Below are positions 45,511 through 49,508 of a stretch of DNA of 64,000 nucleotides, piece after piece. Numbering within the stretch: the first letter of the stretch is position 1; each line of letters begins with the position of its first letter. This DNA is from Candidatus Microthrix parvicella Bio17-1 (GTDB lineage: Bacteria; Actinomycetota; Acidimicrobiia; Acidimicrobiales; Microtrichaceae): positions 1,178,001 through 1,242,000 of the forward strand of contig NZ_AMPG01000001.1 of NCBI RefSeq assembly GCF_000299415.1, read 5' to 3'. The position numbers and the translations under genes are program-made. The notes beneath the pieces were generated by a model. It was not told where the DNA came from. It did not search any database and worked only from the letters and a program-made list of their open reading frames with translations.

Positions 45511-45560
45511 TGGTGGCGGGGGCAGGATTTGAACCTGCGACCTTCGGGTTATGAGCCCGA
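45511..45560 (-). repeat. 3' fragment of tRNA-fMet (direct repeat, att-like)
   Basis: 50 bases identical to 49432-49481: the anticodon loop, variable loop, T-arm, 3' acceptor strand and CCA of the initiator tRNA. To its right the sequence no longer matches, and the 5' half needed to pair the acceptor stem is missing, so it cannot be a working tRNA. Such 3'-end duplications are the usual scar of integration into a tRNA gene. Confidence 0.85.
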
Positions 45561-45641
45561 TGGTCACCATCCCAGCGCTGCACCACAGCCTCGTTGCCCT
45601 CCGCTCGCGTCCTTGTCGACGCGCGGCCTTCGTGCTGGCCC

Positions 45642-45959
45642 TTAAGCGACGATGCGCTTCAGCAGGTGGCGGTTCTTCGCCACGGACCCCGGGAGGATGC
45701 TGAAATGACCCTGACCGTCATCATCGATGGCGGACACCCGCACAACAGCCGTCGCTTGGCGGTTGCCAGCAAGCAGCATTGCTCCTGGGCGGACACAGCC
45801 GGGGCTGTTGGCGTCGGTCAGAGCGCTCAGTCGCTTGCGCCTGACGAGTCGGCGACCGAAACCAGTCGGAGCCTGGCATCTACGCGAATCAGCTGGCGCT
45901 GATGGCAGCCTCGATCTCGTGGCGATGGCAAGGGTCGCAGGCGGCCCAGCGACGTTCAT
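45642..45959 (-). CDS. doubtful hypothetical frame
   Basis: A 105-codon frame overlapping the abiEii 3' end by 71 bases. Its last ~50 residues (GCVRPGAMLLAGN, FSILPGSVAKNRHLL) look protein-like, and may be the tail of an older gene cut by whatever created this island. The N-terminal part looks random. The rest of 45561-45888 holds nothing else I can support. Confidence 0.25.
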   Translation of the reverse strand: MNVAGPPATLAIATRSRLPSAPADSRRCQAPTGFGRRLVRRKRLSALTDANSPGCVRPGAMLLAGNRQATAVVRVSAIDDDGQGHFSILPGSVAKNRHLLKRIVA

Positions 45960-46773
45960 CTTCGTCGAGGGCTACGAGGAACTCGAATCGTTCTCGGACG
46001 ACTCTCTCCCAGCGTCTGAGGTCCACCGGTTGGGTCAGCTTGCCGATCGAGTCGGGAGCGAAGTCGCCTTCGGATCTGGGTTCGAGAATGTCCGCTGGGT
46101 CGGCCGGTTTGTCGCCGCGGCCATCGTCGACAACGTCACCCCACACCTTGAGTACCCACAGCCGTCGCACGAGAGCTTCGTCCATCGCTCCGGAAGCGAA
46201 TTGAGCGAGGTCATAGACGTCGCGGCCAAGCGCTACGCGCCGGTAGCGAGCGAGCTTCTCCGCGCACGCCTCCGCCTCGGCTATCACGGGAAGCTCCGGT
46301 AGGGCGATCTCGTACACCCGGTGTATAGACAGATGAACGAAGCCGATGCGCTCGGGCCGCAGAATCAGGGGCCGCCGCGCGAACTCCACCGATGTGGCGA
46401 CATCGGGCTGGCCGAGCTGAGGATGTCGGACCTGCATGGTCCAGTGCCGCCCGTCGCCGCGAGTGGACTGGAGCGAATACTGAAACCCGGCGACGCTCGC
46501 ACCATCGATGGACTCGCACACCTCCAGAACGGTGTCGTCATCAGGGGCGACGAAGTCGAGATCCGTGGAGAATCGTCCCCCACTGCCAAGTCGGCACTTC
46601 CGGAGCGCAGTTCCGCCCTTGAACACCAAGGTGCCGTCATCGAAGTGACCGAGCTCGGCCAGTAACCACAGCAGATGATCCTGCGCGACGTCGAGTAGCG
46701 CCGCACCGTAGGTGTCGGCGCGGCCCGCTCCATGTAGTCGAACTAGCGCTTCGGTCAGCGTGCCAGCGGCCAT
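45889..46773 (-). CDS. abiEii: AbiEii nucleotidyltransferase toxin
   Basis: 294 residues from the ATG at 46773. The nucleotidyltransferase motif is FKGGTALRK (about 51-59) with FSTDLDF (69-74), and EKLARYRRVALGRDVYDLAQF is the helix typical of AbiEii/AbiGii (DUF1814) toxins. In AbiE systems this enzyme transfers nucleotides to tRNA and arrests growth upon phage infection. The start overlaps the antitoxin stop (TGATG); a GTG one codon upstream is an alternative. Confidence 0.9.
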   Translation of the reverse strand: MAAGTLTEALVRLHGAGRADTYGAALLDVAQDHLLWLLAELGHFDDGTLVFKGGTALRKCRLGSGGRFSTDLDFVAPDDDTVLEVCESIDGASVAGFQYSLQSTRGDGRHWTMQVRHPQLGQPDVATSVEFARRPLILRPERIGFVHLSIHRVYEIALPELPVIAEAEACAEKLARYRRVALGRDVYDLAQFASGAMDEALVRRLWVLKVWGDVVDDGRGDKPADPADILEPRSEGDFAPDSIGKLTQPVDLRRWERVVRERFEFLVALDEDERRWAACDPCHRHEIEAAISAS

Positions 46774-47645
46774 CACGCCTTCCCCAGTTGATCTTGCAAC
46801 GGTGCGATCAGGTGATCATTGACGCTGAATCGTGATGACCATGCTGCGGTAGCGCCGTCGCCAAAGGACGCTACCGGCATCGACCTGCTTGGACGCCGGT
46901 CGAGTAGATCAACAGCGTCGTCGCTTCTGCCTCCGCGGTGCAGAAGGTACGCGGCACGTTGCCATGCGGAGGCTGACTGACCGCCGAGCAGGCGCTCGAT
47001 CTTGTCGGTGTCACAGTCCGATGCCAAGACATCGAGTTGGGGAACCAGGTCGGCCCAGACCCGAAACGACGCGGGCCTGGCACCCAACTGGACCACCAGC
47101 GCTTCAGGACCGAAGGCCGGGAGCCCAGCGGCCCAGTTGGTCAGGTCCAGCCCCTTGCGACGAAGGAGACGAGAGTTGGGCACGAACTCGCTGGTTTTTT
47201 CGCCCGCCCAGCTGAGCCGTACGAGCGAGACGTAGCTCCGCAGTCCGTGCGGAACGCGCTCGTTCGGCGGCAGCCAGACCGCGATCGTCCCGCCGAAGTT
47301 GCGGGGGAGGTAGCCAAGGTGCCAAGCCGCCGCCTCTCCTGCGAGAGCGAACGCGGCATCGGGTTCGCGCGCCTTCCAAGCCCGTAGATCGATGTATGGG
47401 TCGGTGACGTTGGCCTCCCCCGCCGGCACGAACGCCCACACGCCTTTGAGATGCAAGCTCGCGAACCAGCCAAGCTGCTGAAGGTCGCGGGCGGTCCTTT
47501 CTAGGTCCCGACCGACTCCAAGTTCCTCAAGGCGGCCGGCGAGATCCTGTCGCGTGACGACTGCCGGACGATCCCGAGAGAGAACCGCAATCAGATCCGC
47601 TGCCCACCCTGGGATCGAACGTGAAGCACCACCTGTTCTGCTCAT
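46773..47645 (-). CDS. abiEi: AbiEi-family antitoxin (type IV)
   Basis: 290 residues. An N-terminal winged helix (VVTRQDLAGRLEELGVGRDLERTARDL) is followed by the C-terminal domain (GEAAAWHLGYLPRN, WLPPNERVP, SRLLRRKGLDLTNW). AbiEi represses its own promoter and counteracts AbiEii without binding it. It is the first gene of the pair and is translationally coupled to the toxin. An inverted repeat 34 bases upstream is a candidate self-operator. Confidence 0.88.
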   Translation of the reverse strand: MSRTGGASRSIPGWAADLIAVLSRDRPAVVTRQDLAGRLEELGVGRDLERTARDLQQLGWFASLHLKGVWAFVPAGEANVTDPYIDLRAWKAREPDAAFALAGEAAAWHLGYLPRNFGGTIAVWLPPNERVPHGLRSYVSLVRLSWAGEKTSEFVPNSRLLRRKGLDLTNWAAGLPAFGPEALVVQLGARPASFRVWADLVPQLDVLASDCDTDKIERLLGGQSASAWQRAAYLLHRGGRSDDAVDLLDRRPSRSMPVASFGDGATAAWSSRFSVNDHLIAPLQDQLGKA

Positions 47646-48276: not shown

Positions 48277-48656
48277 TCCACGAGTCCCGCATCGTTCTGG
48301 AGCCTGGCCAGCTCAGCGAGGACAGGCGCTCGCCGCTCGCGCTCAGCCGCTAGGAACGTCCGAATCGAGACAACGGGGATCCGGTGGTGAGTACCCACCT
48401 TGCGAAAGGCAAGCTTGCCGTCGTCCATGAGCTTGCGGACCTGGGGCCGGGACATGCCCAGCAACTGACCAGCCTGGGTCGGCGTGACATCCCCAAGACT
48501 GTTCGTGAGCACAACGTCGTGGCCGCTGACCTTGGCATCGACGAGCCGTGCCATCCACTCGGCGGTCTCCCGCGAGACAGACAGGCGGACCTCGTCGCCG
48601 ACTTTCGCCAGCGCTTGGTGCAATTTGTCAGCATCTCGAGTCAAGATTTCGGTCAT
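48273..48656 (-). CDS. helix-turn-helix (excisionase-type) antitoxin for the PIN toxin
   Basis: 127 residues from the ATG behind GGAGG (7 bases). The C-terminal part has a MerR/excisionase-like helix-turn-helix (TPTQAGQLLGMSRPQVRKLMDDGKL, shown here only in part as TPTQAGQLLGMSRPQ). Antitoxins of this shape pair with PIN toxins in actinobacteria. A longer frame to 48701 has no ribosome site. Confidence 0.83.
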   Translation of the reverse strand: MTEILTRDADKLHQALAKVGDEVRLSVSRETAEWMARLVDAKVSGHDVVLTNSLGDVTPTQAGQLLGMSRPQVRKLMDDGKLAFRKVGTHHRIPVVSIRTFLAAERERRAPVLAELARLQNDAGLVE

Positions 48657-48883
48657 GATAAACCTCCACGCTATCTGCTCTATCTGCACCAACCGTAGCA
48701 TCTGTCACAAGGAGGGGATTCGAGAACTACTTTCCGTTCCGTCCCTGACTCCATCGAATCGCCCGACACGTCACCAGCCGCATCGACCTCGACGCCCAGA
48801 CCATGGCGTCTCGATCGCTGGCGGCGACGACTACTGCGGTGTCGTTCATCACTACACACTGACGCTGCCGGTTGTTGCTGAGC

Positions 48884-49183
48884 TCATGCGACGGGATGCA
48901 GCTCGAAGCGGAGCCCGAGAGCGGTCGTCACTTTGAGAATCGTGGTCCACGTGGGATTACCGTCAGCCGACAGCGCCTTGTAGAGCCCGTCGCGACTCAT
49001 CCCGACACGGCACGCCAACGCGCTCATGTTCTGCGTGCGCGCGATTACCCCCAGAGCACGCGGGACCGCGAAGGGATCATCGTCCGACTCCTCGATCGCA
49101 AGCTCGAGGTAACCGGCGATGTCGTCCAAATCGACGAGATAGTTGGCCACGTCGAAGTCGTGCGTCCTGATGACCTCGACCAC
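48884..49183 (-). CDS. orphan HigA-type antitoxin (addiction-module antidote protein)
   Basis: 99 residues, GTG start. YLELAIEESDDDPFAVPRAL, then a helix-turn-helix ALACRVGMSRDGLYKALS and GNPTWTTILKVTTALGL are the pattern of the addiction-module antidote family that pairs with a HigB/Gp49-like toxin. In such pairs the toxin gene usually comes first, but 49184-49431 has no room for one and the downstream 160 bases have none. The antitoxin is therefore without a visible partner. Confidence 0.8.
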   Translation of the reverse strand: MVEVIRTHDFDVANYLVDLDDIAGYLELAIEESDDDPFAVPRALGVIARTQNMSALACRVGMSRDGLYKALSADGNPTWTTILKVTTALGLRFELHPVA

Positions 49184-49431
49184 GTGTCGACTATATCTGA
49201 CAGATCGAGCTGTTTAGATCAGGCGTCGCCGCCGCACGGTTCTATCGGTGGACAATGAAGTCGGGCGAACGCCACGGTGCGGCGTCAACGGGCAAGATCG
49301 TGGCCATTGCTGGCGGATGACCCCGTTTGACCTGTTTGACACGGCCCCGAATTCTGGCCGCCTCGGCGCGTCTAGGAATGACAAAGGCCCGGAATCCCTT
49401 GGGATTCCGGGCCTTCTGTTGCCGATTTCGT
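49184..49431. other. intergenic region with no supported gene
   Basis: Between the orphan antitoxin and the tRNA gene. Apart from the tRNA terminator near its right end I see nothing. The short frames here are antisense or cross the tRNA. It may hold the remains of a lost toxin gene, but no such motif is readable. Confidence 0.4.
49384..49415 (-). terminator. terminator of tRNA-fMet
   Basis: A perfect inverted repeat with 15-base arms, AAGGCCCGGAATCCC-TT-GGGATTCCGGGCCTT, 17 bases past the tRNA 3' end. Read leftward it runs into TTTGTCATT. The stem could act in both directions. Confidence 0.8.
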
Positions 49432-49508
49432 TGGTGGCGGGGGCAGGATTTGAACCTGCGACCTTCGGGTTATGAGCCCGACGAGCTACCAGACTGCTCC
49501 ACCCCGCG
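49432..49508 (-). tRNA. initiator tRNA-fMet (CAT)
   Basis: 77 nt. It starts CGCGGGGTGGAGCAG and ends CCCCGCCACCA, with CCA encoded. The anticodon stem has the three G:C pairs of an initiator (CGGGCTCATAACCCG), and position 1 is unpaired with 72 (C against C; E. coli has C:A), another initiator mark. It is transcribed leftward and followed by a strong terminator. Its last 50 nt recur at 45511-45560. Confidence 0.96.

Follow-up and report, generated by a model that had tools for sequence, protein, structure and literature searches.

Genes and features at the tRNA-fMet locus

The window, a stretch of 64,000 nucleotides from Candidatus Microthrix parvicella Bio17-1, contains an intact initiator tRNA gene (tRNA-fMet) followed by two partial copies of its 3' half. 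According to Pfam assignments, a PIN/HTH gene pair and an orphan antitoxin lie between the tRNA and the first copy (module 1), and an AbiE pair lies between the two copies (module 2). The AbiE, PIN, HTH and HI1420 genes and the remnant of a D81 gene are all encoded on the strand of the tRNA (minus).

Table 1 Features of the locus (window coordinates, strand, assignment and evidence).
49432..49508 (-) intact initiator tRNA (fMet), the target gene; ARAGORN tRNA-Met(cat), Rfam tRNA 66 bits
49360..49425 (-) terminator-like hairpin just downstream of the tRNA 3' end; from sequence, terminator-side piece -31.9 kcal/mol
48884..49183 (-) orphan antitoxin (antidote) of the HI1420 family; PF21716, TIGR02684
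48273..48701 (-) HTH_17 (excisionase-type) protein, putative antitoxin of the PIN gene; PF12728, TIGR01764
47839..48276 (-) PIN-domain protein (PIN_3), putative toxin, end gene of module 1; PF13470
47735..47789 (-) decayed fMet 3'-half copy with element flank, distal end of module 1; 86% over 57 columns
46773..47645 (-) AbiEi antitoxin; PF09407
45889..46776 (-) AbiEii toxin (nucleotidyltransferase); PF08843, PDLC02318 1.5e-120
45642..45779 (-) truncated D81 element gene remnant, adjoins the distal copy; 14-hit family, E 2e-21
45506..45560 (-) fMet 3'-half copy (50 nt exact), distal end of module 2; repeat alignment
45485..45505 (-) hairpin region (approximate) on the terminator side of the distal copy; terminator-side piece -24.5 kcal/mol

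In the tRNA sequence, positions 1 and 72 face each other as a C-C mismatch and the anticodon stem has three G-C pairs, both of which are marks of an initiator tRNA. Residues 45506-45560 and 49427-49481 align over 55 nt and differ only in the fifth base, leaving a 50-nt exact copy at 45511-45560, and the copy at 47735-47789 reaches further into the tRNA 5' half. Chance is excluded for both, because they match the fMet query with E values of 6.4e-21 and 2.5e-10 in a whole-genome search. An earlier note on this DNA had reported the intact gene and its two copies, the gene layout between them, the greater length of the 47735 copy and its more advanced decay despite its position nearer to the tRNA, all of which the alignments and domain assignments bear out.

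The AbiEi and AbiEii genes are adjacent, as in an AbiE type IV toxin-antitoxin (TA) pair, and the PIN and HTH_17 genes overlap, forming a putative PIN-domain TA pair as judged from sequence. No toxin partner gene was called between the HI1420-type antidote and the tRNA. A PemK-type TA pair is located on the opposite side of the tRNA, where there are no fMet copies. ARAGORN and Rfam both label ~45511-45590 as a tRNA. This segment is read here as an fMet copy joined to a tRNA-like flank; it may be a functional second tRNA, although its acceptor stem forms 5 of 7 pairs. The usual 5' neighbor of the fMet gene in relatives, which we take to be a UPF0182-type gene, is 29 kb away in this genome, and no tRNA 5' half was found beside it.

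fMet copies in this genome and its relatives

The whole genome contains eight partial fMet copies. Two are those of the window, and the other six form two clusters, C1:144.0-149.6 kb (next to a tRNA-Val) and C2:186.3-208.1 kb, neither of which includes an intact fMet gene. The fMet query also cross-matches tRNA-Asp in this search. Control queries with the tRNA-Glu, tRNA-Asp and tRNA-Phe of the same genome yielded no partial copy at ≥85%, the two weaker matches being 84% over 62 nt and 79% over 51 nt.

The tRNA query matched in 58 of 61 genomes searched, many of which carry extra short copies. An exact-pattern scan of the GTDB collection, designed to skip intact genes, returned 54 stretches; it cannot reach groups with a different fMet because the pattern is the window tRNA's own sequence. 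Forty-one of the stretches stand under Acidimicrobiia names, including Microthrixaceae, Ilumatobacter, Aquihabitans and others, and the rest are labeled Actinomycetes (9, of which six come from a genome assigned to this family), Nitrospirae (2), Naasia (1) and bacterium (1). Within the order, at least about 30 of 397 genomes have a non-intact match, as counted by eye among the matches listed. A count of 156/397 was discarded as an order-wide figure, since the one mismatch allowed had admitted intact genes. One viral contig also carries an fMet copy, with an integrase of the clade described below beside it. The deepest array was seen in Aquihabitans sp. G128 (Acidimicrobiales, one contig), in which six copies, all oriented alike, follow the intact gene at 4065741-4065824 and reach to 4261576. 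They are spaced about 24, 8, 20, 25, 96 and 21 kb apart and together span 196 kb. The window locus is one case of a pattern in its order.

The relatives searched included no other genome of the window's genus. A YihY-type gene of the left flank, used as a probe for the empty site, identified no clear syntenic locus, the relatives being too distant, and neither an empty site nor an excision product was seen in the genomes searched.

Anatomy of the boundaries

From the fetched loci, 97 distinct partial copies and 20 intact genes were retained. All partial copies but one (96/97) are 3' halves, as are the array boundaries, the exception (L164:8982) being a 5' half. Identity to the intact gene stops directly after the anticodon loop in 44 of 77 scorable copies and within 1 nt after it in 61, with the reservation that core identity is biased because many copies were found with an exact core. 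Neighboring copies share the same orientation in 21/21 pairs.

The two sides of a copy differ in character, a hairpin usually occupying the tRNA 3' side and element-specific flanks the anticodon side. The 58-nt terminator-side pieces fold at ≤-20 kcal/mol in 101/113 cases, compared with 62/113 random pieces and 32/113 pieces from the other side. Several anticodon-side flanks are common to different genomes (for example L011/L058, L059/L130 and L051/L057/L053). In the window, the 47735 flank is shared with L010:19066 of this genome (0/200 shuffles as good), and the 45506 flank matches other flanks weakly (16/200 shuffles as good). The flanks of L009:6104, L009:6906 and L010:6362, also of this genome, gave matches no better than shuffles. 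ARAGORN labels 6/92 copies as tRNA, against 0.7 on average with shuffled flanks.

Integrases beside the fMet copies

A profile search detected no integrase between 45560 and 49422 in the window, nor in 18 of 21 bounded modules of the fetched loci, so that most modules in their present state are not autonomous. In 25/102 cases, the first terminator-side gene, within 600 bp, encodes a tyrosine integrase; two L105 fragments in this count share one integrase. In a circular element, the terminator-side first gene would adjoin attP. In a quick 88-row tree, a single 41-row clade (SH-aLRT 99) takes in all 20 long fMet-adjacent integrases, together with two that lie near tRNA-Arg(ACG) and another near tRNA-Leu(TAA). 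Nine integrases located within 120 bp of other tRNA genes are placed outside this clade. The presence of R, H-x-x-R-H and Y is the catalytic motif rule for tyrosine integrases. A clade member of this genome, L010:11240-12415, is positioned between two fMet copies, retains these aligned positions and looks intact. The earlier note's statement that no recombinase is present is borne out for integrases between the tRNA and the distal copy and is not supported for the system, because integrases are common beside the fMet copies of relatives and one of the same clade is encoded in this genome.

Cargo of the modules

The bounded modules range from 0.18 to 13.7 kb within fetched stretches of at most 20 kb each. 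Among them, L055 carries IrrE and a UvrD helicase, L116 a PNKP/Hen1 RNA-repair set that follows a Gp49/HTH TA pair, L046 an ABC protein and L163 a metal ATPase. The proposal that the class consists of small units holding TA genes alone is not supported, given transporters, RNA-repair genes, the helicase, the metal ATPase and further genes in other modules, the size range above and the G128 intervals of up to 96 kb.

The first gene on the anticodon side belongs to a TA or D81 family in 26/85 cases, the families having been chosen because of their recurrence at that position. All 26 point in the tRNA sense, and comprise 11 HigA/RelE-like, 10 D81, 4 PIN3 and 1 other PIN gene; the remaining first genes are 37 sense and 22 antisense. 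A PIN gene occupies this position in four loci, the window included, and the PIN/HTH pair was found in six independent loci and adjoins fMet copies in other genera. AbiE was considered as a recurrent fMet cargo and not seen as such among the 61 genomes; AbiEii relatives occur in 7 other genomes of this set, on contigs that differ, by eye, from those listed with fMet copies.

The segment 45642-45779 encodes the 45-codon C-terminal part of D81, with 80% identity to an Aquihabitans protein. Because this truncated C-terminal part stands beside its copy, module 2 is probably a deletion remnant and not a unit born small. D81 and its partner L108_126 occur in 16/119 genomes, often beside integrases at other tRNAs, which makes their designation as a TA pair unsafe. 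Neither belongs to a Pfam, NCBIfam or PHROGs family (one sub-cut-off NCBIfam match). A model of L108_126 bears a weak likeness to Tpt1/KptA (Foldseek E 0.19, Z 6.7); that of D81 has no clear match.

Probable tandem accretion at tRNA-fMet and its alternatives

Most likely, two integrative elements stand in tandem behind the initiator tRNA gene of this locus. Circular elements would have been inserted by a tyrosine integrase that recombines their att site with the anticodon loop of the tRNA gene. Each element would bring its own tRNA 3' half and terminator, so that the tRNA is kept complete and the 3' half that was displaced comes to lie at the element's far end. Successive insertions would build a row of elements with a single direction. 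Neither member in the window has an integrase now; module 2, left with only the end of an element gene, probably lost DNA by deletion, and the remaining TA genes probably persist because their loss is harmful (addiction). The integrase at C2:191.3 kb may act in trans. The earlier note had proposed stepwise addition at one tRNA, which agrees with the match of the copies to fMet, their recombination-like end-point and the one-way arrays of relatives; its interpretation as a whole is partly supported. Counted against accretion are the 18/21 modules devoid of an integrase, the two copy clusters with no intact fMet gene, the clade members near tRNA-Arg(ACG) and tRNA-Leu(TAA) in a quick tree, the weak 45506 flank and the three own-genome flanks that do not exceed shuffles, and the six ARAGORN tRNA labels, which simple 3'-half displacement does not explain. 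Plain accretion implies that the host's original half lies outermost and that the copy nearer to the tRNA is the more recent, yet decay has gone further in this inner copy. Such an order would follow from integration at an existing copy, from a divergent att half or from chance loss.

An origin of the copies as plain tRNA duplications or pseudogenes, with no link to site-specific integration, is very improbable. Clusters away from any intact fMet gene and the tRNA label given to the 45506 copy by ARAGORN and Rfam would suit such an origin, but the copies stop at the anticodon loop, run one way and have integrases on one side, and the control tRNAs of the genome lack similar copies. It is more conceivable, albeit doubtful, that the TA genes came separately by other routes and settled near old att copies of larger, lost elements. 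The position of AbiE behind a truncated D81 gene, the AbiEii relatives elsewhere in genomes and the PemK-type pair on the copy-free side of the tRNA are consistent with separate arrival, whereas the PIN/HTH pair adjoining fMet copies in other genera and the uniform tRNA sense of the TA/D81 first genes argue against it.

The small TA modules could also have been born small and moved as units in trans by fMet-type integrases, like integron cassettes, which we consider unlikely. Other very small bounded modules, namely a CcdA-like/PIN module of 0.73 kb in this genome and one of 1.18 kb containing only the L108_126/D81 pair, fit this origin, as do the PIN/HTH pair of genome G024, which is 81% identical over 844 nt with little similarity beyond the pair, and the clade integrase of this genome. 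Against it stand the truncated element gene in module 2, the location of AbiEii relatives on contigs other than those with fMet copies (by eye) and the flanks of the small L009 module, which resemble other flanks no better than shuffles do; in the genomes compared, no small module was seen to have been transferred as a whole. Cassette movement is less likely than tandem accretion. Its broader form, an integron-like system of the Acidimicrobiia in which fMet integrases acting in trans build and shuffle one-way arrays of small TA cassettes, is similarly improbable. Each TA cassette would end in a tRNA 3' half with its own terminator, with recombination in the anticodon loop.

Comparison with known systems

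Tandem islands at tRNA and tmRNA genes are already known (PMC3146451, PMC4383910). The ssrA islands of Dehalococcoides are likewise bounded by end repeats and arranged in tandem downstream of one RNA gene, and 16/31 have an integration module; they differ in their tmRNA T-loop target, serine recombinase, 20-bp repeat and reductive dehalogenase cargo (PMC3146451). The tRNA islands of Islander share the tRNA 3' fragment and the tyrosine integrase with the arrays described here, and the Islander survey lists 2083 islands with an anticodon-centered site and 125 tandems of ≥2 members, 4 of them of ≥3, an integrase being required in each member (PMC4383910). Compared with those tandems, the arrays here reach six copies and most members have no integrase. 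The window locus has the intact tRNA and displaced 3' fragment in the same orientation of an Islander-sense island, and no integrase within the island.

Streptococcal CIMEs, known alongside tandem accretion in those bacteria, are similarly bounded by att sites, devoid of a recombinase and located beside related elements, in other hosts and at other targets. The window modules resemble them in having two att sites and no recombinase gene, the 45506 flank being the weakly supported one, and L010:11240-12415 is the candidate integrase for their mobilization. Mobilization of streptococcal CIMEs has reportedly been demonstrated by others. Tycheposons are tRNA-bounded elements that build islands, and their likeness to the fMet arrays lies in the tRNA boundaries and the building of islands. 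Actinomycete AICEs have tyrosine integrases at tRNA genes, one of them at a tRNA-Met, and the survey of these elements found none in Acidimicrobidae (PMC3218068); the likeness concerns the integrase and its tRNA target. A streptococcal ICE that is stabilized by AbiE and SezAT also combines AbiE with a type II TA in an integrative element, in that case one autonomous ICE (PMC11062541), whereas here the two reside in separate integrase-less modules.

The arrays show that an essential gene, that of the initiator tRNA, serves group-wide as a place where mobile DNA stacks up, and their order documents what was gained and lost. Where modules have been reduced to TA genes, it can be asked directly whether addiction decides survival as elements decay, and the complete isolate genome of Aquihabitans sp. 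G128 with its six-copy array makes the pattern testable. Among titles and abstract openings, with few subscription journals covered, no description of fMet arrays in Acidimicrobiia was found. Relative to the known systems, the initiator tRNA target, the array depth and the TA genes next to an att copy are the new features.

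Partial copies of the initiator tRNA gene

Beside the distal partial copy of the tRNA-fMet gene, at the far end of module 2, lies the following gene:

44864-45429, RibD_C-type reductase gene, immediately outside the distal copy

The reductase gene appears to be broken into two frames, and a 77% relative occurs near a copy in L191. Both ARAGORN and Rfam call a tRNA-Met on the chimeric copy at 45511-45590, which automatic annotation would report as a false second gene.

Two clusters of partial tRNA-fMet copies, both distant from any intact tRNA-fMet gene, occur elsewhere in the same genome:

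C1:144041-149592, copy cluster 1 (L009)
C2:186304-208141, copy cluster 2 (L010, L011)

A 0.73 kb module with CcdA-like/PIN genes sits in one of them. The C2 cluster contains three consecutive tyrosine recombinases (L010:13201-16333), and similar triplets are present elsewhere in this genome. At L164:8982 of YX2bin34 the tRNA-fMet 5' half is present and its 3' half is absent; this 5' half adjoins the usual neighbour gene and has integrase pieces next to it.

The L108_126/D81 gene pair

L108_126 followed by D81 constitutes a two-gene family, found at L108:5792-6434, L150:4350-4996, L240, L242, L244 and L250. A tyrosine integrase often directly precedes the pair, at various tRNAs. Pfam and PHROGs searches with the family returned no match; the predicted model of the L108_126 protein weakly resembles Tpt1/KptA.
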